Assembly (NCBI RefSeq): GCF_026151205.1
Contig: NC_087073.1
Coordinates: forward strand, 18,566,837-18,630,836
From: Bolinopsis microptera
Taxonomy: Eukaryota; Ctenophora; Tentaculata; Lobata; Bolinopsidae
Length of the DNA: 64,000 nucleotides
Reading direction: 5' to 3'
The translations under genes and the position numbers were made by a program. The notes beneath the pieces are model-generated. The model saw nothing but the letters and a program-made list of their open reading frames with translations, was not told where the DNA came from and made no database searches. Positions 1,121 to 58,139 of this stretch are shown in pieces; positions within the stretch are counted from its first letter, which is position 1; every line of letters starts with the position of its first letter.

Positions 1121-1152
1121 GTAAGGATAAACGTTCCTGACGAGAATATCCA

Positions 1153-4100
1153 ATGGATCGCATGGACATTCCCACCAGGACCCGAGAGTTGGATGAGTTA
1201 TCAGTTGGGAGTAAAACAACACTTGGGAGTCTTGGAGGGAGAAAAAGGAAAGTTAAACACTTTAACCTGACTGATCTGAATCGGTACGGAACTATCGAGT
1301 CTAGCTACTTGTGTGAGAGCAATCGCGAGGAAAGGATAGAGAAAACTGATCTGTACGTCAAGCGAGTCAAAGACATTCACTTTATCACTCAGTCTGAGGT
1401 GGACTCTATGAAGAAAGCGCTAAGGATTCAGATAACTGAAGATTACGAGGGAGTCCCAGAGATGATTGGCAAGATAAAAATCAAAGTTTGTAACACGTAC
1501 GTTGCTGATAGGAAGGGTCTCGCTGGGCCATCGGGCGATCAACTGTGCTTTTGTGGGAAACCAAAGGAAGATGAGAAACACCAGGCATTTTCAGAGTCTA
1601 AAGAGTGGACAAGTTCGAGACATACCAAAGATGTAAAGACAAATACTTGGGGTAAGGTGGCCCTGGCTGGGTGCCAAGCTAACTTTGTGAGGTTATGTGA
1701 AGACACGAGTATGAAGAGAATAGAGGAGTTGTTGATGAATGTTTACAAGATGAAGAAACCTGGTGTTATCGTCTCTGTTTTAGGTTTGTTCGTTATTCTG
1801 GCTTCTCACTTAAGTACGAATGCAAATTCTTTATATTTATCTTCTGAATGCAGATTAATATTTTCTTATAATTATATTTATCTTCTGAACATACGAGTAA
1901 ATTGGCTCTTGTTTAAATGTCTTGAACCAAAAAACTGTTTACTTTACTTACTTAATAATAAACACCATTACAAAACAGTGCTAATTTACAATTCCAGGCA
2001 GCACATCTGAGCTGGAGATGTCAGATAAACTGGAGGATGAGATAGAGAGGTGTCTGCCTAAAGCTGCTGCTGCCTGTGATGCCTGGATGTTTACACCTGG
2101 AGTAAACGGAGGCTGCGGGAAACTCGTGGGTAATGGAATCAGGACTTACGGTTTGTCGCTCTACACCGTCGGGATTGTAGCCTGGTCCTCTTTAAACGAT
2201 AGAGTAAGTTTAGATTGGGTTACTGAATTAAGATAACCATTACCAGACTTCTTACAATGTTATTGAGATTACTTGAACGAAATATCTCGTGATTTTAACT
2301 AGGATTTGCTATTGATATCCACTTCTATCGTGACAAAGAACTTGCACAGGCCCGAAAGAGATTGACTGATCAGACCAACGAACTCGGAAATACCATCCCA
2401 TACCCCACAAATGTAGGGGAAACTGATGTTAGACATTTGGAACAAAACCATACCACTTTCTTGATGGTGGACAATGGACGAGACGATGTCTCTAGCTGCA
2501 TCAAAGCTGCCACAGATTTAAGAATAAAGTTTGAGGTCCGTTAACTCATGCCATTGACCATTTAGTAATCAGTAGCTCTATCAATTCTATAAATTTAGTT
2601 ATCTAAAGCTAAGCGTGAAGTTTAATGTTATGTGTTAGGACTTATACATCCATTCGTACTTACGTTTTAGCTGTGAAAATCTTTATTGCTATTAAAATCT
2701 GAATTTTCAGAATCATATGAAGAAAAGTGCGGATGTTCCGGTGATTAGTGTCCTGAACAGAGGAGGACTAAAGTCTGTGTTTGTGGTAACTCAGAGGCTA
2801 TGTGATGACGATACCGTGATAGTACTGGCTAAAAGTGCTGGATTAGCAAGCTTTATTCAAAAGTTGAAGGAGCACTGCATCTGGGTAAGATTATTCAAGA
2901 AGTTAATGTGGTTAATTAATAGTGCCTTCATAACTATCGGTTCCATGCTCAAAATAGAAGCAGTTGTCAAACATCTACCATCTGTTATCTGTTATCTACT
3001 ATCTGTTATCGATATCATCGAACAGTTAAATAGTTTTAAATAATCTTATAGGTCAACAAGAAATTGGAATCTTCTGACAAGCTACAAGAAAAGACAAAGA
3101 GAGCCAAAGAACCGTGCAAGTGTATTGAAAGTGGAGGGGTGTTTAAAGCCGACCTAAGAGCCTGTATCCACATCACCAGAAAGATGGCTAAACATCTTTC
3201 CATGGAAGGAGTGTCACAGCAAATTTGGGATATGATGTATGACTTCGCTGAAGTGTGTGTACAGCGGCTGTCACAAATATTCATTTACGATCAAAGATCA
3301 AAGACCGAGTTCGATCAATTGCTTCTTGATGCGATGGTCGAAAATGACTCCGGGGTGGGAAAGAAATTAGAATACGCTTTTGAACTAGGAACAGTTGAAG
3401 TTGTTGAAAGCATGCTGAACGACTCAGCTGAACGACTGCGATCAAAGACTTTAACCAACCTAATCATGAAAGCAATCATCATGAACCGCCCAAAGATGGT
3501 CAAACTTTTCCTGAACACCTGTCAAAAGTCTCAGCTCCTGCAGCTGAAGTTCAACATGCCGGTGCTGTACGACAGTGCTCTCTATTCCTACGGGGGAGGT
3601 CACTTAGTACGACTCATCACATACTGGGTCAGTGATAGTATAATTCCGGGCGCTACAAGTCTTGGAATATATCGTTACGACGAAACTGAAAGTATTGATG
3701 AGGGGGTTTGTGAGGAGACAGATGAGCGCTCTTTTGGGGCCATGTGGAACCCTCAAGCTATCAGACTCATTGATAACCTGATAAACGAATTAGCAGGAGA
3801 CTCCTTTAATTCTTCTGTTGGTTGCGAAGAGGACCCCTTCATGGAGCTCACTTTATGGTCTGTCATGATGTTAAGGAGGGAGATGGCGCTGATGTTCTGC
3901 AAAAGATCTGAGGAGCCTATCAGATGTGCTTTATTGTGTCTGAAGCTACTGTCACAGATGGAAAAGAGGAACAATGTGTTGGTTAACACGGAAGAGGATG
4001 AGAAGGTCTCGGAGATGAAGGAAGCGTTTGAGAGTCTGGCTATTTGTACTTTGGAAGCATGCTATGCTGAGAACCCTGAAATGACTTTTGCAGCTGCGCG

Positions 4101-6578
4101 TTCTCGGTGGACTCGAGTCAAGAACTACGATTATCTGGAACTTGCGTTTGAGGCGGAGTCAAAACGATTTATCGCGCATCCAGCTTGTCAGGATATCTCA
4201 GAGAGAAGATGGAGAGTAGGATTTGTGAAAGACGAAGGTTTCTGGAAAGTTCTTCTCATATGTCTTTTCCCACCTCTTATCCTAATTCCTGGTCTCATTG
4301 AATTCGATGTGTTTGCAAATCGTCATCAAGATGGACATGAACGAGCGTGGTGGGACAAAATTTTTGTTCGGTTCAAGATAGTCGGAAAATCGCCCATGAT
4401 AAAGTTTTGGATGAGTGCAGTTTTCTCCTTGGTGTTTCTAATACTTCACCTCCGAGTGCTGTACTTGGATACGAAACCTGTCTTGAATCCTGAAGTAGAC
4501 ACTGTCAGTTGGCCCTTCATCATCCTCGTTTTCGTTTGGTTCTGTCTGTTGGTCATTGACGAGGTTGGTTGTTTACTTTTGGATATAATATATTTTAAAC
4601 CCTTTATATTAAGTCCTATTAAGTCTAGTACGTTTTTTATTACCGTTTCTCTGCTTGTAGGAAATGTAATTCACTGAACTAACACTACCTCTCTTTCAGA
4701 TTATACAGGTATTTACCGAGAAACTATTTTATTGGTGGAAGAACGTTTGGAACAGGCTCGATATGGTGAACTACCTCATATTCTTTGTTGGTTTGATTCT
4801 ATGTATGGCGTACATTTGCACCGATGATGGAGGAAATTGTTCTCTTTCGTACAAAGCAGACGGTAGGTCTTATTGCTGATTCCCTCTACATTATAGATGC
4901 CCAAAATTAAAAAGAATGCGTATTCAACAAAGCAAAGTTTTCGATATGGCATAATATGACAAAGCAATCATTTGATTTCAACCTATTCAGGAGCTCTCTA
5001 CTGCCGGGATCCTGCGAAGGCTGTGTGTAAAGATTCCGACGCTGTGAAAGTTCATGCGGGTAGGATTTTATTGAGTATTGTGACGGTCACAATGTCCTTG
5101 AGATGGAGCGTGTTCATAACCAGTGATCTTACCCTCGGTCCTATTGTGCTCATGCTCTTCGAGGTTAGTTCTTATCTGTATAAATTATTACCTCTGGTAA
5201 TAATCTATGAATGTTGGACTGTTCAGAGGAGAGATGTTTTGTTGTAGAACATTTCAAATTTTTAGATTTTTAGCCCATTCAAAGTCTGCGGAAAAACATT
5301 AGAGTACATAGCGATGCAGTTGAGAAGGTAAATCTCCTATTTTGTCGCTTATGTGTATTTAAAACTGCGTCAACTCTTTCTCAGATGGCCACAACGTTCG
5401 TGAACTTCTTCATGATATTCACTGTGGTTCTTCTTGGTTTTGGAGCTGCGTATATCGGCTTGCTTGTAGAGGTTGGAACTTTTAGCATGAAGAGAAACGT
5501 TATCGGCATGGTCTATTACACTTACTTCCAGGTATGTATTCACTTTTTACACGTTAAAAACAGCTAACAAGTCTAGTTTATCGTTGTTGACTTTTGGAGC
5601 TAATTAATGAAATAATTGAGCCTAGTTAATCATTCAGGAATAAAAAATACCAAACATTCTCGTCTTATTAATTTTTAATTCGTGACCCTCATCCCAACAG
5701 AGCCTGGGAGAGTTGTTCCTTGAAAACCTGGAGAGTCCCGGAGCTTACTATCTGACCAACAATCCGAACGTGACTGAATCTTGGTACCTAGATAGTGATG
5801 TTAACGGAGCCTACTACTATGTCGCTCTCTTCCTACTCTTCATGTTCATGATTATTAGTAATCTGATGTTGCTTAACATTCTTATTGCTATGTTCACGGA
5901 GAGTTACGAGAAGATTAGTTCTAACCAGAAAACCATCTGGAAATTCCAAAGGTAACTGGCTCATTGTGATCTCAAATTTAGATTTATAGTCTGATTATAG
6001 GCCAAAGAAATGAAATGATCGTGTTTCCTCGACCATCCTGTTTGCTAGCTTTTTAATTGGTTTTGTTATACTTATAGTGAATACTGGTCAGTGGTATCGG
6101 TAATATGAAGTATACTATTGCATATAAAACGCATTCTCTTTCAGGTACAGTTTGTTGAAAGACTACGAGGGCAAATACCTGCCGGTTCCGCTTAACGTTA
6201 TTCACTATCCATTGTCATTCACAAGATGGATATGGAAAAAGTTTAACCCTAAGAATAAATATATCAACCCTCTAAGGAAGAGTATAGACAAACATTTAAG
6301 GTTCGTTAATGTATTTTATTCCATTTCTTGTTATTTTTCTCATGTACGAGTCAGTAATTTCAGTACATCCATTAATTTCAACACGATAATAGAATTAAAA
6401 TCAATGATGATAATCGTATATTTTAATAAGTTAGCCTAATTACGAATTAACGACCATTATTTAATCCCACAGAGCGTTCGTTAAAGAAGGTCTGCAAACA
6501 TTCTTAAGGCTGTATGGGGAGCGACAGGAGGAAGACTCTAACTCTTTAAAGTTTGCCAAATATGCTCAAGGACTCTAG
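1153..6578 (+). CDS. TRPM-like cation channel, about 1,270 aa, at least 12 exons
   Basis: A membrane cation channel of the TRPM branch. Exons read by eye: 1153-1783, 1998-2203, 2303-2535, 2711-2884, 3052-4563, 4700-4862, 4991-5163, 5274-5327, 5385-5531, 5701-5951, 6145-6300 and 6473-6578 (TAG). The first four exons encode the TRPM N-terminal homology (SLOG-like) region, with recognisable text such as NFVRLCEDTSMKRIEELL and HLEQNHTTFLMVDNG. The long fifth exon runs from the mid-homology region into S1-S2. S3-S6 follow, with a pore loop after YYTYFQSLGEL, S6 ending NILIAMF, and the TRP helix IWKFQRYSLLKDY. The C-terminus stops soon after, with no alpha-kinase or Nudix domain. The start is uncertain: an upstream ATG at 926 opens a Pro/Glu-rich frame that I could not join cleanly. 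Exons 2 and 3 do not join in phase with canonical sites. The 54-nt exon adds 18 residues before S5. Family call is secure, ion selectivity is unknown. Confidence 0.85.
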
Positions 6579-13189: not shown

Positions 13190-14395
13190 AACAGTGGACC
13201 GCTTCTCTACCACTCTCCCTAACCAACATCTTCAACTCCCTTCCTCCAAACCCTATCCTCCTAGCAGCGGTAGGTTAACTCCCACCACATCACCTTCTTG
13301 GCTGACCGGTAAAAGATTAAGAGGTCCGGTCTCAGCCGTGTCTTGGCAATCTCCTCTGGGAACTTCGGTTGCTCATCAAGATCAGATATCACCACCCAGT
13401 CCCGAGATGCACTCAGGATACCAAAACTACCCTCTGCACTCTTCTTCGCTGGAACCTTCTTGCTTCCCTCAGGCACAAAATCAATACATTGCTTAGTCTC
13501 CTTCACTCTATTCTTAGAGGTGTTCACTCGGCGTTCACAATGGAAAGTCACGTGGTCTGTTAGTTGTTTGAGAACCTTATCATGCCGCCACCTGTTACGC
13601 CCTTGGCTCAGCGAGACCCTACAACCGGATATAATGTGTTGTATGCTCCCTGCCCTATCCTCAAACAGCTTGCAAAGTCCATCCTCTTCTTCATTCCACT
13701 TCGATGCTAAGGCTGGTGTGACCACAGTACCGTAAGTCGCACTGAGCATAAAACCTGTGAGCGAATCACCGGACCATACTTAAAGAGTGTGTGCCAGCTC
13801 ATGTCCGTCTTCATAACCTCTTCCCTTCACTGACCCCATCTTGACTGCATCTCAAGAGAGCCGCATTGAACTTCCCTTTCATGCTCGAGGTTTCTTTTAA
13901 CTTTCTGAAGGACCTCAGCTTGTTGTTCCCGGGTGTTCATCCTCTCTGTGGTACTCCTGAAAGTATAAATTTTATTTCAGAAAATTCATCACCTACTTTT
14001 ACTCTCATTGACCTCCCAACTAAAAAGTTCTCAATGATATCAATAATATCCTCGGGAATCCACAAATTCTTTAGCTTAATTAGTAACCGGTAGTGTGGTA
14101 CACTGTCAAACGCTTTAGAAAAGTCGAATTAGAGTATATCTGCACAACCACCTTCTGCCAACAAATCATTGACGGCATCTATGGACATTGGACTCCAGGA
14201 GGTTAGATAAGCAAGATCTGCCTTTCATGAAACCATGCTGCTTCCTGCTCAACAGCTGCTCAACACCATAGAGTATATACTCCCTAAGAAGTTTCTCATA
14301 AGTCTTGCACATGATACAAGTCAGTGACACCGGCCTATATTCATTAGGGTTGTGTACTGACCCCTTCTTGTGCAAGGCCACGACAGTGGCGGTCT
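13190..14395 (-). pseudogene. Decayed non-LTR retrotransposon (reverse transcriptase and C-terminus)
   Basis: Read leftwards from 14395. The RT palm start has KKG, NEYRPVSLT and KQHGFMKGRSC (14381-14166). Then come FDFSKAFDSVPH with an in-frame stop just before it, and the SGVPQRG motif (about 14120-13945). The segment that should carry the YADD box is missing or scrambled. A 162-residue C-terminal frame (13749-13261) has the zinc-knuckle-like and GRNRWRHDKVL motifs, ending MWWELTYRC. Several frameshifts show it is dead. It resembles CR1/jockey-clade elements and sits just upstream of the IRAK-nucleosidase gene on the opposite strand. Confidence 0.75.
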
Positions 14396-14417
14396 TTAAA
14401 AGTTGAATCAGAGTTGA

Positions 14418-14633
14418 TTTTTTATTTGAAAATTCAATTAATTATTATATTTATAAATAAAGCGTTACATTTCAGCCATGCAAAATTACAATGACATATT
14501 TCGATAAACTAATTCATAAATGGTACTGCAATATAAGTTGCTTAATGTTTGGCCGGATGACAACTAACTAAAAAAGAAAAATAAACTTGATGACATAATA
14601 ATTAATTCGGCTGAACCAACACATAGCAAGAGT
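14418..14633. repeat. Dispersed repeat, copy 2
   Basis: The shorter copy of the 7139-7595 repeat, lacking its hairpin block. It ends about 135 bases before the start codon of the kinase-nucleosidase gene, so it may overlap that gene's promoter. Confidence 0.7.
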
Positions 14634-14769: not shown

Positions 14770-17700
14770 ATGGCACCCAAGAAAATTAGTGATGTTCCCT
14801 ATTCATGCATCAGTGGTTTGTGTCAGATTCTAGATTCCTGCAAAGATCCCCGGCAGAATTGGCGTGGCCTTGCTGAACGGTTGGAATTATATAATGCTAA
14901 AGACATAGCAGGTTTTGAAAGAAAATTAATGCAGCTGGATGGCAGTCCAACTAGAAGTTTGCTCACTGATCTTTCTATGACCGGAAGAAACATTGATGAA
15001 CTTTTCACTCTATTTTACAAAATGCAAAATGAGGAGGCGTTTCAGTTTCTTAAGACATCAGGGCAGGTATCAAAATCTCTTGCCAATAACTTAAAAATGA
15101 AACCGAAACCAAAAGTGGTGAATAGTGCACCTCAAAATCATCCCAGATCTCATTATCCAGATGCTCGTTCAATTATGAAGTACATTGATCAGGAAAATAA
15201 TGAATTTGACCCAACTGTTGCCAAAGGAAATTCAAGTGATTTGAGTCTTTCCATTGTTGCCCAACAGAAAGAGTCAATGACAGATGACATACTACCTGCC
15301 CTGCGGAACAAAGGCCTGATCGAATTCAGTTACAATGAAGTTTGTCAGGCTACTGGCAATTTCAGTGACTGTACACTTACCGGTGGGTGTAAATTAGGTA
15401 TGGGGTCTTTTGGGACTGTCTTCAAGGGTGATTTGAAGAATACAACCTTTGCTATCAAAAAGTTGAATCTGAACAATGACATGCATGCTCGCTCAGTTGG
15501 ACTAAGTCAGTTTGCTGTCGAAGTTTTAACTTTGTCTAAATATAGGCATCCAAACCTGTTAGAATTAGTCGGATATTCACTTGATCCTAGGGCACCCTGT
15601 CTAGTGTATTATTATATGGAAAAAGGTTCTCTCGCAAGCGTCCTTGCTTCTCCAGAGGCAAGTCAAATTCCTTGGGATACAAGATTGCGCCTATCTGATG
15701 ACATTTCTAAAGGGTTGGTGTTTTTACACACAGCATCTGACAAGCCATTGATACACAGAGACTTAAAATCGGCCAATGTTCTGCTAACAAATGATTATCA
15801 GGCTAAGATTGGTGACTTTGGTCTAGCCAGATTGGGATCCGATCATTCTAACAGTATTGTCCAAACAAATCGGTTACAGGGAACTATGGGTTACATATCA
15901 CCTGAAGCTGCTAGAGGGAATATATCCACAAAAACAGATGTTTTCAGTTATGGAGTACTGATGTTAGAGTTAATTACTAATCTTAGTGCGTTTGATCCTA
16001 ATAGAGGATATCAAAATCAATCTCTAGTAGGTTTGATTGAAAAGAAGTTGAGTGGTAATGGTGACTCATTGAATATTATATCAGCTGAGGGTGTAAAATG
16101 GCCCGAAATTGTTGCCAAGGAATTCCTGAACATTTCTCAATCATGTTTTGAAGATCACAACATCAGACCAACTGCTCCAGTCATACTACAAAAAGTGTCG
16201 GATATTATTCAACTCTGTTCTTCGAAAAACGATTTTGAAGCTTGGATTCAGCCAGGGAGTTTAACACTTAACCCTGACAAGCAGGTATTTGAAAACAGGA
16301 AAACAATTCTAGTTCTCACTGGAAATAGACAACAGAGTAACCTGATTCAAAGCAGAATTGGAAAGTTGCTAGAGGGAGAATCGAACACAAGTTCTCTGCG
16401 CTCACTTCAGGATATGGAATTTCACTTCGTCACACTGCCAGATGCTATTATTATAGTCTGCAATCCTATATCTGATTTCAACAAATGTCTGCAAGACTCT
16501 ATCAATCGTTTTAATCCTCATTTGGTAATTTCTTCTGGGCTTTGCCATGGTGTAAGAGGAAAGGTAAAGTGCTTACATTTTATTTCATGACAAGTTACTC
16601 TTTTTAAATTAGTTTATGAATCTTAGTATAGGATTAAGTTGATTTTTTATCAACATCTTAAATCTGATCTACTTATTTGTATTCCAAGAAACGTGTTAGA
16701 TTCGGTAATAACACAAACAGGTTCCAACAAAACCTGTAAACATTTTATATTTCAGGTAAACCTGTGCGATCTGGTGATATCAGAAAGCACTTCTCTTGGA
16801 AACGTCACATATTCCGTAACAAACGAAGTGACGTCCCTCCTACAGACGATACAGAAGAGCGATGCAACTGGTGATGCACTGTGGAAGTTACCTGGACTCC
16901 TGCCAAAACCCCCTGCTCGAACTGCCTCCCAAACTTTACTGTGGATCAGCAAGCTTATCATGGAGGTCAAATCAGTAAGTAATAAATTAATCTTGATTTT
17001 CAGTTCATCACATCTATTTATGACACAATGACTGCTTTATAAATATCAATCGCTTTTAAAATTTAAATAACGATAAGAAATAAAATTACTAGAAGTAATT
17101 CGTCTAATCAGAGATAAGATATCAATAATATATTCAACTATTTAATTCGCGAATATCCCTGTACTGACAGATTATTGAAAATTAAGCTCACATTCAGTAA
17201 ATCAAAACCACTGAATTGTATAAATTAAAATTATTCTGATGTTTGACCATTCAGGAAAAACCAACAGAGTCTCACTGGTTGAAGCAAATAAACTACAATC
17301 ACGGACTGGGACACGATTACTCTGGGTTCATCGAGAATATGAAGATCTACTCGGCAAAGTACCCGTGTCTACATTCAGCTAATATGACACTAGTCTATGA
17401 TCCTATAACAGATACTCTTGATCCAGACATCAACCTCAAGGTTCGTGTTTCCGTTTGGATTTAAAGTTATTTTCCGGACTTTTTAAGTTTTGTTTTTGCA
17501 GCTAGTCTCCGTACAAACGGCGTAATTCAATCTTCTCTCATTCAGTATCGTAATATACATGTACTACATTATACATAGTACATCCTCCCCTAAATATTGG
17601 TAACAATAAAATTATTAACATAACACTATTAATACACACATTCCAGGCGTCAGTGTCAGCCATGTCTCCTGATAGTATACATCTTCGCAAGAGAAAACTG

Positions 17701-18160
17701 AGCCCCAAGTTACATATCGGGTCTCTGAGTCCTTCTGATATTCCTTATACACCTGGAGACGCCTTCACTCGCTTCAAACTCTGTCCTGAGGTATGCTATG
17801 TTGAGTTTAATCGGTTTCTGAAGAGTTATTCACATATTTGATATTCATCAGCTGTTGTTTAAACAGAATTTTCTGTTGAAATTTAAACTATGTATTGTAC
17901 AAGTGACATTGACTATACCGGAAACTAACGTGTCTCCCTGTTTACAGAGTTTGCTGGGATGTGATGTTGAGACACTGCATCTCTACAGTATGTGTGTCAA
18001 AACCGAGACACCCTCTGTCTCAATCAAGAGCGTGTGTGGGTTCTCAGATCCGTACGAAGACACGAGGTTTAATGAAATAGCTACTAATATGAGCGCCCTA
18101 GGAGTGGTTCAGTTTATCGCTACATACCTCAGTCCGGAGTCTAGATCCTGTGTCAGTTGA
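14770..18160 (+). CDS. Death domain, IRAK/Pelle kinase and nucleoside phosphorylase-like fusion, 851 aa
   Basis: Exons 14770-16563, 16756-16974, 17255-17440, 17647-17790 and 17948-18160, all joining in phase 0. Residues about 10-95 look like an IRAK4/Pelle Death domain (NWRGLAERL). Residues about 195-485 are a complete IRAK-family kinase: G-loop GMGSFG at 210, lysine 230 in AIKK, tyrosine-type gatekeeper in LVYYYMEKGSL, HRDLKSAN with D331, DFG D349, and GTMGYISPEAARG. From about 511 a new alpha/beta fold follows: KTILVLTGN, VISSGLCHGVRGKVNLCDLV, and a C-terminus with CDVETLHLY (E789) and CGFSDPYED (D815). That layout fits the PNP/UDP-phosphorylase and MTA/SAH-nucleosidase superfamily, including its usual Glu and Asp. 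The kinase and the first 88 residues of the nucleosidase part share one exon, so the fusion is not an annotation artefact. Predicted role: MyD88-type innate signalling coupled to nucleotide cleavage. The substrate is not shown. Confidence 0.85.
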
Positions 18161-20341: not shown

Positions 20342-23300
20342 ATGTCAAGTTCTCGGCTGCAAAGTGTACTTGCGCGCCCACTGCGTAAGTTGGTACAAGC
20401 AAGATGTAGTAGCAGTAAAGCTGTTGTTGCCCCTATAGTAACCTCTGACTCTTATCGAAAAGTAAGTTCTTCGACATGATAGTGCACTCTATCGTGTTGT
20501 CATATCACGATAGAGTCAGCTTTCGAAATCGTGACTGATGTAACTAAGACATTCAAAAAATTGAAAAGAGAGTGTGAATTTTAATGATGACGTAATTTCG
20601 AAGATGAGGCAACCATCATGATTTGACAACACTACAAAAATTGCCGTATATTTAATACTCAAGGTACGAATTATCAATAAACTAATTTCCTCAGTCCCTA
20701 CTAAACATAAACCCGACCGAAGTGACTACGCTGAGCAACGGACTACATGTGTGTAGTGAGTACATTGACACTCCTACTGCCACTGTCGGACTCTGGATCA
20801 ACGCTGGTAGTCGCTGGGAAAATGCCGGAAATAATGGTGTCGCTCATTTCTTAGAGCATCTCGTTTTTAAGGTGATTAAACTTTTAAATGATGGTTTTAT
20901 TTTATACCTGTGGGATCGTGGCTGCTGGAACTTTTTCGAGCATTTTGATTAATAATATAGACATAATCATTTGTTTTTTGGCGCAAGAAAAGAACCTCTT
21001 AACTATTGTGATAGTGATTTAAATGGTAACTGACTGAATCTCATTCTTTCAGGGTACATCCAACAGAACACAACACGAACTAGAATTAGAAGTAGAAAAC
21101 ATGGGAGCTCATCTTAACGCTTACACTTCTCGGGAACAAACTGTTTATTACGCAAAGTGTTTTGCTAAAGATGTGGACAGGTCCATGAATATCCTAGCTG
21201 ATATCTTGCAGAACCCAAGACTTGATGAAGGAGCTATCGATAGGGAACGACACGTCATTTTGAGGGAGATGCAGGTAATTTATTATAAAGTTATATAAGA
21301 CATATCAAGAGCTAGAAAATGTAACTAGTTGTAAAACTTGCTGGTACCCCAGCCTAATTTTCCACACTGTATTGCAACGCACCCGTTGAAATAATATGGT
21401 CTAGACGTTTGTTTTGCTCATTTTTATGTCCTTTCAAGTTTCAAATCCAACTGTATGGAGGAAATTGTAGGACACATGCGAGAAACATTATTGTTGCACG
21501 GGATTATACCTCTATTCTTGTAGGTCACCTGTCTTCATGAATTATCTTGACATCATGCTGCATGAATGCTCGCTCCATTTTGCACAGATTGTGGATTTTG
21601 TCGATCCTCTTTCGTCACTAAAATCAAGATTACGGAATACAGACTAACGTTCTGTGAATTTTATTATCGTATAATAATTTTGATTTACGATTTACGGATG
21701 AGATTAAACACAATAAGGGAGGGTTCGTATATTATGTCACGATTATGGGGGAGGGGGTTTAGAAATTGGAAAATAAGCTGACGTATTTTAATTTGTTATT
21801 TATCAACTTCCTGACGGAGGGGGATTTTAAAATGGCGAAATCTTGATGACGTAAAAACATAAACGGTCCCTGCATGAAAAACTTGCTATGACATGCTGCT
21901 TTTAAGTAACCCCGTTATCGTTCGTGACCAGTTTCCAATTTTTCTATCACCTTCGCACAGCGAGGTTAAGAAGTTGAAGGGGATAGTTGGGTATTTTCAG
22001 AGCAAAAAAGTACGAGGAGTTCTTTTAATTGACGGAAGGCGCTAACGCCGAATCAACTCTTGTTAAACCAAGGGCACGGTATTTTTGCGCCAAACGCGCG
22101 CAGTTCTGTCGACGCGCGCGTACTCTATTAAAGTTTTGTAACGACGGGAATGCATTCGTAATTGAATGGTAATTGATTTTCTTATTATCATGTCAATTAC
22201 AACAGTTAATGAGGTAACCGTTAATGAACCTTAGGAGGTGGAAACGAACCTACAGGAAGTGATATTCGATCACCTGCACGCTATTGCCTACCAAGGAACC
22301 CCATTAAGCTACAACATACTTGGACCTACCGAAAACATCAAATCTATTGATAGGTAACATACGTTTGTCTTTTTCTATTAATTTGAGTGTTTGCAGTCAA
22401 CTAACGGGCGCCTGCACAGTGGTTATGATTCATACCGGAAGTTACCTTCGTGTTATTTATTAAGGAAATAACGGAAACATGTCACACTACGCACATAATG
22501 AAACTCTTAAGAATTCTAAATCACGTCAGTGTGTTTGTTTGACGTAATTTTGAATTCTCTAGAGTTACATATACGAGCATTATTTTTTCCGGCTTCTACC
22601 TGACATGAGTGCGATAATTCAAAAATACTGGTAGTTGAGTGTTTCCGTGCTTAAAGATAGTTCCAGGGTTCCACCAAGATCAGGACAAACACGGAAGCTA
22701 CATATTTGGCTACATATTTCCCATATTTTTTATAAGTCGCAGTAAATTAAAGTTTGCGGAAGATATATCCTGTTAAACACTGTACCTGTCGGTTATCCTT
22801 ATACATAATATTAAGGAAGTGTTATTGATTACCTGGTGTTTAACATCTGATTTGACTTCAGAGCGGATTTGTTAGACTACATTGGTCGCCACTACCAACC
22901 ACACCAGATTTATCTGGCAGCAGCTGGAGGAGTAGATCATGCGGAACTGGTCAAACTGGCTGAGAAACATTTCGGGGATATGCAAACTACAAACGTTTCA
23001 GAGGTCGAATATCCTGCAGCCAGATACTCCGGATCTACGGTTAGTCAGTAAAAGATAGAACTTATGTTTACAATTTCGACTTAAGTTGCACTCTAGAACT
23101 TCCAAATTGGACAAATTATGTTTGAGACTGGACTTGTTCAAAGTTTAAACCGTTTATTAATTTGATAATTTCCTCAGATGAACAACAGAGATGACGCAAT
23201 GGGTCTCGCTCACGTAGCTCTGGCTGTAGAAGGTTGCAGCTGGACAAACCCTGATTACTTCGCTATGATGATCGCCAATACTGTGAGTAGCAAACCAATG

Positions 23301-25821
23301 ATGATTTTCCCCCTGATCTTCAGTGACCCACCCTAGAATGAGCATCTTGGCTAGAGGAGTATTTATCCCTACAACCTATTATAACACCTTAACTAGACAT
23401 GTCCATGAGTGCCCCTACGTTTTGTGGCTTCCATTCGCCTAGAAATATTAACAATCAGTTTAACTCATTTCGTTATCTATGAATCTCTGTGCCATACCTA
23501 CTGCTAAAAATTTGTATCGTGGTGAACTACACTGGTCCCGCACTTGATAGCGAGACTGAGTACCCTAAACTCTCACCCCGGATATCGGAAATAATAAGCC
23601 AATCTTCTCATGGGCACGCCGTGCCGTAACCTATAAAATGCAAGTGTCAGCATGGCTTCATAGTGTTTTCTGAATTCTGAAAACTTATACCAAGGTTTAT
23701 ATTCAACAAAACGCGAGTAAGTTCAGCGAAAAGCTCAGATTGTGACTAACTTGTGTCATAATGGGTTTTATCTAAAGTTTGTCTTAGTCTAGGCCTAGTT
23801 ACAAGAAGCATAACTCTTTTTTGGTAGATTATTTAAATTATGGTATCCGCAAAAGTATATGTTTTTGTGGAAGGGAAAACAGTTTCTAGTATCCTGTATC
23901 CTGTACTGTAGAGGGTAATCACACTATATAATGACAACACTATATAATGACAAGCACTTTGTAATGACAGCTGATCTTTGTCATTATATAGTCTGCAAAA
24001 CGGACTATATAATGACAACACTATATAGTGACAAGTTTATCTTATATCGACTTTTCCTTACTTTTCCGTCAGTTCCGTTCCTCTTTCTGTTTAAGGTGTA
24101 GCGTTGACCATCCACGAGAGCGTTGTCCTTTCCTCGTTTACCAGTAGTGTATTCAACAGAAGGAGTAGCCATGATTGATATAGCTTGTCCTTCATTGAGC
24201 CCTATATATACGAGTACCACCACATGATAACAAGCTCCAACGACACCAACGAGCTCCAACAAGTACTCATGTTTCCACTTGAGTACTTGGATCACATCCT
24301 TTCCACAGCTTGCCTTAAAATATTTGAGATGACGGATCAGCTAGTGATGATCTGTGGCACGTTCGATGTTACGCGACCTTACCATTTGAAGGCATGGGTC
24401 ACATCCTTTTAGGTAAATTCGCAGCCGTCTCACATGTCATTATATAGTGTGCAAAACGCACTTTGTAATGACAGGACTATATAGTGACAAGTCATTATAA
24501 AGTGCTTGTCATTTTTTTTTATCTAGACACTTATTTTACTTCGGTGTATTCCAACAGCCACAATGTTACACAAGTGCAACCAGCCAATCACAGGAAGCCG
24601 AAGGATCTTTTTGGCCAGTGACGGTTAAGGTAGTGTGTACCATACTTTCTTCGTCCGAGACTTTGCTGCAATGTGCAGCTCCTCATTTAACCCTCACACC
24701 CGATTTCTCGAGTATTCGGCTGAGTAGACCGGGGGGCTGCATAGACCACTCATGATCCTTAGCTGAACGTCGACGACGCTCACCCCACGACCAGGCAGTC
24801 AGTGGGTTTCGAACTCGCAACCTAACGATTGTAAGACAGGCGTTCTAACCAACTGCGCTACCTGGCCGTTATATAGTGTTGTCATTATATAGTGTGGGAA
24901 TCACTGTAGAGTAAATATAGTTGCTGGTAAGCAACAAATTTAACATTTGATGGAAACCAAGTTTAATCACTCTTCCCTCAGTTGATCGGCAATTGGAACA
25001 GGGCCCAGGGTGGAGGAAGGACAATGCCTAGCGCCTTCGCAAGAAAAGTGTACGAACAAAAACACCCTCAGTCATACATGGCGTTCAACACCTGTTATAA
25101 AGATACTGGACTCTTCGGTAAACTATAAATATTTTTGCAAATTACGATGGAATTCCTAGTAACCCGGCTTTGCAATAGAGAACACATATTATATTATAGG
25201 TCTCTAAAACATGACCCCACAGGAGTATACGGTGTTTGTGAGCCGGATGAGGATGCCGTCCGAAAGTTCATCGGTGCAATCCAATCCGAATGGAGGAGAA
25301 TCTTCCGCTCTGCAAGTCCCGGAGAAGTGCAGCGAGCTAAGAACCTGCTGAAAACTCTGCTGCTCGCCCAGTGTGACGGTTCAACTGCTGTCTGTGAGGA
25401 TATAGGTAGACAAATGCTCACCTACGGTAGGAGAATACCCCTTGCTGAGATCGATGCCAGGGTTGAAGCTGTAACCCCTAGTGTGCTGAAGAAGGTTGTC
25501 GGAGAATATGTGTACGATCGGGACCCCGTTCTCGTTGGAATAGGTGAGTTGCTGTTCACCATTACTTACGGTTAACTTAAATTTTTTCAGATTTATTATG
25601 TGATGTTTCCTGCAAATTTTGACCAATGCAGCTGTATTTTGATTATTTTAGTTGTACGAATGATCACGAATGATTGCACGAATGATCACTCGACCAAGAT
25701 TAGTTTACCAAGTCCTTTTTAATTAGCTACTTCTCTAACCGATCTAACTTTTTCAGGAGCTACAGAGGGACTGCCAGATCAGCTATTAATCAAGTTCCAA
25801 CAGAGTAGTGGTATGGACTAA
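20342..25821 (+). CDS. PMPCB: Mitochondrial processing peptidase beta subunit, 480 aa
   Basis: Cleaves presequences from proteins imported into the mitochondrial matrix, as a dimer with the alpha subunit. Nine exons join in phase: 20342-20461, 20695-20871, 21053-21274, 22235-22353, 22862-23039, 23178-23282, 24982-25117, 25223-25543 and 25757-25821 (TAA). Residues 1-40 are basic and Ser/Arg-rich without acids until late, a typical matrix-targeting signal. The zinc site HFLEH is at 91-95 and the distal ligand glutamate is E171, exactly 76 residues on, as in catalytic beta subunits. The glycine-rich alpha-subunit loop is absent, as expected. The text [12 protein letters not shown] and VYGVCEP matches the conserved C-terminal half. 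AATAAA at 26015-26020 is a likely poly(A) signal. Intron 6 (1.7 kb) holds a transposon with a nested SINE. Length matches the family. Confidence 0.95.
20482..20517. repeat. Short hairpin in PMPCB intron 1
   Basis: ACTCTATCGTG is separated by about ten bases from its exact complement CACGATAGAGT, about 20 bases after the splice donor. It could affect intron structure. No known element. Confidence 0.7.
23914..24903. mobile_element. 990-bp TIR element built from a repeated 15-mer, in PMPCB intron 6
   Basis: Direct repeats ACTGTAGAG (23905-23913 and 24903-24911) look like an 8-9 base target-site duplication, which would suit hAT- or Mutator-type transposition. The ends contain facing copies of CACACTATATAATGACAACA. 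Diverged copies of the 15-mer CACTATATAATGACA recur in both orientations near both ends and in the middle (for example 23922-24034 and 24437-24510). No transposase frame remains. It does not disturb the exons on either side. Confidence 0.8.
24512..24867 (-). mobile_element. tRNA-derived SINE nested in the TIR element
   Basis: Read leftwards from 24867, the sequence begins GGCCAGGTAGCGCAGTTGG like a tRNA. It has an RNA polymerase III A box (TAGCGCAGTTG) and a B box (AGTTCGAAACC, one mismatch to consensus), then a tRNA-unrelated body of about 250 bases and an A-rich tail (A9) at about 24512-24520. The anticodon region reads CTTACAA, closest in look to tRNA-Val, but the stem is degraded, so this is a SINE and not a working tRNA. 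It was inserted into one of the 15-mer blocks of the host element. Confidence 0.8.
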
Positions 25822-52629: not shown

Positions 52630-52912
52630 CTGTAAAGGGGAATATTCATGAGTCATTGATAACTATCCTAATTGTAATATCAAAACCGTGGTAATTGATA
52701 TCGATCACTCGTCGCTGGTTGCTCGATAATTGGTTTCCTGTGCGCGCCACTAAACGCAGTTACACGTGTCGAGAATCAATCTAGCCAGCAATTTAACCAT
52801 ATTTTAGATTTAATGAGACATCGTTACCTGACAGTTCAATTTTGCTAGGTTTTATTTTGCAGGAGGAATTGTTGTACCTTTGTACTAATCTTTTAAATAC
52901 CTAGACACCAGG

Positions 52913-53365
52913 ATGCCTTTAAACAATGAAGCGAAGTCCGAGATGAAAGCTGCCTTCAAATCATTTGACAAGGACGGCAGTGGGACGCTAACCGCCACCG
53001 ACTTGGCGAAGGCAATGAACTCGGTTGCAGGGGGACTTACCGAGGCACAGTGCACGGAACTAATCAATCTGGCTGATGCGGACGGCGACAAAAAGATGAA
53101 TGTTGATGAGTTTATGAAGATTGTCGAGGAAGGATTGGCTCTGTACGAACAACAGAACCCGGGAGCGGACCTCATTTCAGAGGAGTTCAAAAACTTCGAC
53201 GTGAACGGCGACGGATCGATCGACAAGGACGAGCTGAGACAAGCCATGATCGATATGGGGGAAGAGGTAAATGACGACGAACTGGAGGCCATGTTCAACG
53301 CTGCTGACGCAGACGGCGACAAGATGATTTCAGTTGAGGAGTTCAGGAAAATGTGCGGGCATTAA
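52913..53365 (+). CDS. Calmodulin-like four-EF-hand protein, 150 aa, intronless
   Basis: A cytosolic calcium sensor of the calmodulin/troponin C family. The four 12-residue loops are at 19-30 (DKDGSGTLTATD), 55-66 (DADGDKKMNVDE), 96-107 (DVNGDGSIDKDE) and 132-143 (DADGDKMISVEE). Loop 1 ends in Asp instead of Glu, and loops 2 and 4 have Lys in place of the usual Gly at position 6, so affinities may differ from calmodulin. Length is about that of calmodulin. There is no intron, and GC content and codon choice are higher than in the neighbours, compatible with a retro-copy or a highly expressed gene. AATAAA at 53446-53451 is a likely poly(A) signal. It sits on the opposite strand between the Q/H-rich exons and CLOCK. 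Partner proteins unknown. Confidence 0.93.
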   Translation: MPLNNEAKSEMKAAFKSFDKDGSGTLTATDLAKAMNSVAGGLTEAQCTELINLADADGDKKMNVDEFMKIVEEGLALYEQQNPGADLISEEFKNFDVNGDGSIDKDELRQAMIDMGEEVNDDELEAMFNAADADGDKMISVEEFRKMCGH

Positions 53366-56528: not shown

Positions 56529-57325
56529 CTAGAGTGAAAATTTGTTTCTCCAAGCAACTCTATCATCGGCTGATATCTTAAGCTTATTAAGATCATTCAA
56601 AGAGTTAAGGTTTAAACCTCTACGGGTCAAATCATTCACAATAATCTTGAACAAATTCTTACGATGCGCACCGACGAGCCCTTTACAGTTTGTTGTGACA
56701 GCAAACTTTAACGCTAATGCTGCGGGGGAGTCATCAGCACTACGCAAGATATGACCTAGGAGCTTCCACCTTGCTTTAGGGAAACGATCTGATAGCTTTA
56801 CTGAGTTACATCTTAGGTATAAGTTTGCATTGGATATTGTTCCATGAGGCCAATAAATGTTCAGTAATGATCTAAGGTGTTTTCTATGGCAAATGTCTAG
56901 TTTTTCTAGTGACTTTGCAGTAGGACACAAACTACTGCAATTATACATGATGATTGATACAATTTGGGCTTCGTATACTGCTATCTTTCTGGTAACGGAG
57001 ATATTCTGCTGAGACAAGATCTTGGTGAACTTATAGAAGGCATTGTTCCCAGCAATGCATCGAGCAGCTATATCACATTCACTACACAACAAAGACCCAA
57101 AAATCTTACTCTTACGCCAATCTTTATTTCCACGTAACATGGTATCATCACGACCAGGGATTGTTTCCCCAACAGGAGCGAGGAAAACATGGGTAAATTC
57201 TGTTTTCTCTGTGTTAATGAACAGGTTAAACTTCTTGAAGACTTCCTTAGCTATTGGTAGGATATCTTTAACATAACAATTTAATTGTGATGAAAGTACA
57301 ATGGTATAACTAAATTGGACGAGAC
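56529..57325 (-). pseudogene. Non-LTR retrotransposon fragment (RT thumb to C-terminus)
   Basis: An open frame read leftwards from about 57325. FSYTIVLSS is a remnant of the YADD box, followed by FNLFINTEKTEF, the FGSLLCSECDI step, the KIAVYEAQIVSIIMYNCSSL and HRKHLRSLL segments, and KLLGHILRSADD. These are hallmarks of the RT C-terminal half of CR1/RTE-like elements. 5'-truncated, with the ADD catalytic pair lost. It lies in the same orientation as CLOCK, possibly in its intron. Confidence 0.75.
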
Positions 57326-58139
57326 TACTTCAGAGGTGTGACAAAACACGTGATTCACATAAACGACATACTGAATGTAGCTCGGTGGAGCTAATGGGTT
57401 AAAGAGACGTGGTAACTGGTAAAACAGCACAGGATTTTGCGGGAGTAAGCAGAAAATCCTTTGATTAAACCATAACTTAATTTTAAGGTGGTACGGTATT
57501 ATACCATACGTTCCAAAATTTAGCTATCATTCATTGTAAATAGTTTAAATGTGTATTATATAATTAACCGAAATTTTTATTCGCTTTACTTTACGTAAGA
57601 TCTCTAACATTTAGTGCAAATTTCAAAGTTCCATATCAGCATAATTATTCAATAAGAATAAGGCTGGAAATTGAATGAGTATCAGTGTTTAGTACTACAA
57701 AGAAGCAGGAACAAGTGGTGGGTATTGAGCGTGTATATTAGAGACAAGAAGAACGCCACTCTTGACTCTTGGATACGAAGAGGATTTGCTTCCTGATGCC
57801 ACCCCTCCCCCTCCCCCACTACGATCACATCTAGAGGCTTTACATAATATGTACTTTATGTAGCTTGTGATCATATTAAGGTAATAGAATCGGAAATCGT
57901 AATCCTCAAAATATCTCTGGAGAGTAGATAAACATTCCAACGACCGCACTCTTACAGATCTTTAGGAGAAACACATGATCATATACCTATATTTCTGTGA
58001 GATAATTTATTATATCAGATTGTATCTAACACTGACTGATCATAGTCAGAATAATCATATCTCTTATATCAGTTGCTAGATTTGTTTTTTAGCTTCTTGT
58101 TTAATGAGTTTAGAAGTTTCGAATACTACTTGGGCTGGT
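57326..58139. other. Intergenic or intronic, no certain gene
   Basis: A minus-strand open frame at 57949-57695 includes a poly-Gly run and ends at a stop, but I recognise no domain and do not call it. Confidence 0.35.

Follow-up and report, generated by a model that had tools for sequence, protein, structure and literature searches.

A Death domain, an IRAK4/Pelle-type kinase and a divergent PNP-superfamily domain joined in one ctenophore gene

A single gene in the 64,000-nucleotide stretch of Bolinopsis microptera DNA analysed here (the window) encodes a Death domain, an IRAK4/Pelle-type kinase and a PNP-superfamily domain, and we could confirm that this fusion is real. Judged by sequence, the third domain is a member of the PNP superfamily, and among the proteins compared it is most like bacterial receiver-PNP proteins. 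Of the three catalytic positions of the PNP fold, a Glu (E789) is the only one kept. With key catalytic residues lost, the C-terminal domain is more suggestive of a module for binding or regulation than of an active nucleotide destroyer. On balance, we lean towards an IRAK4/Pelle-type kinase carrying a conserved C-terminal pseudo-nucleosidase that would bind, scaffold or gate signalling.

Gene structure and conservation of the fusion

The gene (14770-18160, + strand) consists of five exons with 851 open codons followed by a stop. Its four introns are all GT...AG and all in phase 0 (Table 1). The open frame, Pfam, PADLOC and the profile HMM agree with the initial annotation, which had placed a Death domain, an IRAK kinase and a PNP-type domain in one gene. 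It had also described the kinase as running into the third domain inside exon 1, and the same run was found in 8/8 homologs. An annotation error as the origin of the fusion was ruled out, as exon 1 encodes both the kinase and the beginning of the PNP domain, and the homologs repeat this arrangement.

Table 1. Exons, domains and key residues of the fusion gene (window coordinates)
Feature	Position	Strand	Description	Evidence
Exon 1	14770-16563	+	residues 1-598: Death domain, linker, kinase, first part of PNP domain	open frame, donor GTAAAG; 8 homologous ORFs with same run and same match end
Exon 2	16756-16974	+	residues 599-671: RGK/VNLCDLVISE strand continued, then insertion begins	
Exon 3	17255-17440	+	residues 672-733: mostly insertion, absent in bacterial relatives	frame and splice sites only; little alignment
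Exon 4	17647-17790	+	residues 734-781: KLHIGSL strand of PNP domain	
Exon 5	17948-18160	+	residues 782-851 and stop: C-terminal part of PNP domain	top of 1512 window ORFs with PNP profile, E 2.1e-5
Death domain	14818-15054	+	residues 17-95	Pfam PF00531, E 9.3e-5
IRAK4/Pelle-type kinase	15391-16191	+	residues 208-474, including K230, D331, D349	Pfam PF00069; IRAK4 best PDB sequence match
N-terminal part of PNP domain	16294-16563	+	residues 509-598; loop 518-524 without water-activating Glu	
E789	17969-17971	+	retained Glu of M-E motif	aligned to P0009 E349 (109/110)
G812	18038-18040	+	position of invariant catalytic Asp	aligned to P0009 D375 (110/110)
D815	18047-18049	+	not the catalytic position	aligned to P0009 D378 (102/110)

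Regarding the N-terminal part, the Death domain lies barely above the Pfam cut-off (22.9 bits vs 22.6). It was matched in 9/9 members of alignment A1 at a loose threshold (E <= 10), with a best value of 2.4e-6. The kinase was recognised by Pfam as PF07714 at residues 207-425 and as PF00069 at residues 208-474. When the N-terminal 484 residues were searched against PDB sequences, IRAK4 was the closest (E 2.9e-53, query 13-415) and plant receptor kinases outscored IRAK1 and IRAK3, both within the best 60 of 139 matches. Together, the Pfam domains and the IRAK4 match place a Death domain ahead of an IRAK-type kinase, which is the order of the IRAK/Pelle family. The catalytic residues claimed for the kinase (K230, D331 and D349) are all present and invariant in 9/9 aligned sequences, and by these residues (Lys, HRD Asp, DFG Asp) the kinase is predicted to be competent.

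A search with residues 498-851 returned eight proteins (P0001-P0008), all of them exon-1 ORFs of the same gene family, with 68-97% identity to the window protein in the aligned region. Every one of them runs from the Death domain through the kinase into the same PNP-like segment. The match ends just past RGKV, which corresponds to the first splice donor of the window gene, at the same codon in all eight. By mean pairwise identity among the nine exon-1 sequences, the kinase (85.1%) is followed by the PNP half (78.6%), the Death domain (70.6%), the linker (55.1%) and the junction (47.6%). The value for the PNP half indicates that this part of exon 1 is under constraint. This conservation of the fusion covers exon 1, exons 2-5 coming from one assembly. 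The database of homologs apparently consists of intron-free ORF calls, so that missing full-length relatives say little.

Relationship of the C-terminal domain to PNP proteins

Membership of the C-terminal domain in the PNP/UDP phosphorylase superfamily was obtained by sequence homology from PADLOC, a profile HMM, hhalign, a single-query search and a scan of raw ORFs. In the case of PADLOC, the domain matched the receiver-PNP model PDC-M60C (E 1e-11) and a PN-superfamily effector (E 1.1e-6). Bacterial relatives were collected with a profile that combined the window domain with P0009. This bacterial receiver-PNP protein matches PDC-M60C at E 3e-134, and its own match to the window domain is non-significant (E 6.0). 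Scoring of 8000 candidates with this profile and retention of the best 120 of 139 matches gave 117 proteins (P0009-P0125), of which seven short ones were left out. The HMM built from the remaining 110 receiver-PNP proteins, from which the window was excluded, scored the window domain at 36.2 bits; of 200 shuffles, which preserve composition only, the highest reached 0.8. The reversed domain sequence was also scored and was not among the matches listed, down to -1.4 bits. By hhalign the probability was 98.2 (E 4e-14), the aligned columns numbering 92 under default settings and 210 when realignment was relaxed.

When the receiver-PNP HMM was run on 1512 unspliced ORFs of the window, the exon-5 ORF ranked first (E 2.1e-5), followed by a chance ORF (E 0.98) and the exon-1 ORF (E 1.2). 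The shuffles and this raw-ORF scan together rule out a chance similarity to PNP. The window domain was also searched alone against 2675 sequences, namely P0009-P0125 and the ORFs from the fetched loci; the best-scoring receiver-PNP protein reached 38.0 bits (E 1.5e-10). In the same search, a longer PNP ORF from the cyanobacterium Calothrix (locus L054, 5536-7035, + strand) scored 28.2 bits, and the C-terminal portion of the window domain matches it well (26.3 bits over 237-340). Given this match, PNP groups beyond the receiver-PNP type may be equally near. The ranking of the Detocs type as closest holds among the groups compared, since the sampling of other immune PNP groups was very sparse.

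General databases gave weaker matches. Pfam PNP_UDP_1 reached E 0.31 with the C-terminal part alone (10.8 bits vs a cut-off of 25.1), and the Pfam scan of the full-length protein gave no PNP match. The PDB sequence search with the domain gave MTA/SAH nucleosidases at E 0.52, and NCBIfam a DeoD-type PNP at E 0.0031. Taken singly, none of these three is decisive. A structural model limited to a fragment of the domain gave no PNP match.

The surroundings of the bacterial relatives were also inspected. In 6/6 loci examined from the 60 fetched, ORFs of 1146-1212 and 158-197 codons precede the PNP ORF. In the two loci tested (L018 and L007), these two leading ORFs are recognised by PDC-M60A and PDC-M60B. 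Pfam places receiver domains in the small ORFs of both loci, below its cut-off, and finds receiver and PNP domains in the third ORF of L018; the large first ORFs of both gave no Pfam match at E 0.001. According to passages of PMC11249213, Detocs has a three-gene layout and its PNP effector cleaves ATP. From this layout, our own reading is that PDC-M60 may correspond to Detocs, a kinase nature of the large first protein being without Pfam support. In place of a three-gene operon with a receiver-effector protein, the window holds a single multi-exon gene in which Pfam found no receiver domain.

Compared with known systems, the window protein resembles the IRAK4/Pelle kinases of the Toll/IL-1R pathway in its N-terminal Death domain and kinase with catalytic residues kept, but differs from them by the extra C-terminal PNP-superfamily domain. 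With the receiver-PNP proteins (PDC-M60C) it shares the PNP domain with common G-x-R-G-K and S-I-K-S-V-C segments; unlike them, it is an animal gene outside an operon, has an insertion and no receiver domain, and has lost the acid Asp, the loop Glu and an invariant Lys. Housekeeping MTA/SAH nucleosidases and DeoD-type PNPs belong to the same superfamily and match weakly, yet the similarity is far below that to receiver-PNP proteins, and their catalytic residues are lost in the window domain.

PNP-superfamily domains joined to immune or death-type domains are also found elsewhere. Animal Death-like/TRADD-N proteins have variable C-termini, some of which include kinases and others PNPase, according to parts of PMC8195603, the main text of which mentions neither IRAK nor Pelle; fungal NLRs carry PNP_UDP domains, according to parts of PMC10197012 and PMC12881547. 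In contrast to the window protein, these are not IRAKs. No description of an IRAK-PNP fusion was recognised among the papers listed by full-text searches of open-licence PMC, a scope outside which most subscription papers fall.

Catalytic positions of the PNP fold

Among the 110 bacterial relatives, and in the numbering of P0009, D375, K371 and K381 were invariant (110 each), E162 and E349 were conserved in 109 and D378 in 102. In MTA/SAH nucleosidases of solved structure, the residue aligned with D375 is the Asp of S-D. From MTAN enzymology, we take the Asp equivalent to D375 to be the catalytic acid and the Glu equivalent to E162 to be the water-activating residue.

In the alignment, the window segment SIKSVCGFSDPYED stands opposite SIKSVCDFADEEKN. 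D375 corresponds to G812 in the window protein, D378 to D815 and K381 to E818, whereas E349 (as E789) and K371 (as K808) are kept. The acid Asp of the S/C-D motif, present in 110/110 relatives, is thus replaced by Gly, and the Glu of the M-E motif is retained. Since G812, like all of exons 2-5, is known from one assembly, the loss of the Asp may be peculiar to this sequence or reflect a mistake in the assembly. Regarding the water-activating Glu after strand 1, no Glu was found in the window loop 518-524, as compared to 109/110 relatives. At loop column 521, Glu occurs in P0008 alone of the eight homologs and Asp in P0004, so a loop Glu is not conserved among the nine exon-1 sequences. Additionally, the S-G-x-x-V segment is not retained.

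E789 and D815 had been named in the initial annotation as the usual Glu and Asp. The former holds as the conserved Glu. For D815 the role of catalytic Asp was ruled out, since its counterpart in the alignment is D378, three residues past the invariant D375.

Possible roles of the C-terminal domain and genomic context

Beyond homology and residue loss, every step in the working of a pseudo-nucleosidase is one that we infer. The Death domain would dock into an assembly of the MyD88 type, and the kinase would relay the signal. The C-terminal domain would no longer cleave the glycosidic bond; it may instead bind a nucleotide, a nucleoside or a partner protein, or aid assembly through the oligomer-forming PNP fold, and could thereby gate or localise the kinase.

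If the domain were instead an active effector, it would cleave a nucleotide or nucleoside by means of E789 and D815 or another shifted residue, would be switched on by the kinase or by Death-domain assembly, and would lead from Toll/MyD88-type signalling to nucleotide depletion. We regard this as rather unlikely. The kinship to receiver-PNP proteins of Detocs-like layout, the retained E789 and K808 with D815 nearby, and the cleavage of ATP by one Detocs PNP effector (passages of PMC11249213) speak for it, but the acid Asp, the water-activating Glu, an invariant Lys and the S-G-x-x-V segment are lost. The same losses leave the earlier proposal of Toll/MyD88 signalling short-circuited to nucleotide depletion unsupported; with E789 alone kept of three catalytic positions, E818 in place of an invariant Lys and S-G-x-x-V gone, depletion below Toll/MyD88 is the less likely reading. 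In our view it is unlikely that the domain remains enzymatic through a remodelled active site (E789 and D815 or others), which would provide an animal IRAK with its own nucleotide-depleting effector and could turn Toll-type signalling directly into an abortive-infection-like collapse.

The conservation of the domain without its catalytic residues would also be consistent with an integrated decoy, an idea that stems from plant NLRs. By analogy, a dead domain would mimic a nucleotide enzyme attacked by pathogens, and its modification would trigger the attached kinase. Against this stand the facts that no pathogen target is known and that the PF01048 matches of the animal's own genome resemble ordinary PNP and MTA phosphorylase types, not a mimicked kind, and we consider such a decoy quite improbable. 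Little credit is likewise given to a relict tail, that is, a PNP domain decaying or left out of most transcripts of a protein that works as a plain IRAK. The lost catalytic residues, the large insertion and the lack of a spliced full-length relative among the matches listed in the protein searches point in that direction, whereas the PNP half of exon 1 is well conserved in nine sequences with a common match end, and exons 2-5 are open and in phase, with exon 5 matching the PNP profile.

If the pseudo-nucleosidase reading is right, a relative of a Detocs-type effector has been placed behind a Toll/IL-1R kinase and retained despite its catalytic residues being gone. Bacterial, fungal and animal immunity have PNP-domain effectors in common, and the question arises whether animals use dead nucleosidase domains for nucleotide sensing or for the assembly of signalling complexes. 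It would also call for caution, as an ATP-destroying activity should not be assigned to every immune PNP domain.

The own-genome search with PF01048 gave five matches, at 12.415-12.446 Mb of contig C7 (L001, L004 and L005, the latter two lying 13-30 kb from L001) and at 12.49 Mb of contig C5 (L002 and L003); it did not list the divergent domain of the window gene. By eye and from their motifs, the ORFs at L001 resemble a trimeric PNP and those at L003 an MTA phosphorylase.

Several neighbours were seen in the window. On the - strand, ORFs at 13937-14441 and 56529-57326 resemble by eye the remains of reverse transcriptases, the latter being without a Pfam match at E 0.01. On the + strand, pieces of a TRPM channel lie at 1141-4674, with a weak LSDAT match (E 0.0043) and a TRPM2-like domain (E 1.1e-19), and the ORFs at 20686-25575 are presumably exons of a mitochondrial-processing-peptidase beta-type gene. 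An intron-free calmodulin-like EF-hand ORF lies at 52889-53362 on the same strand.
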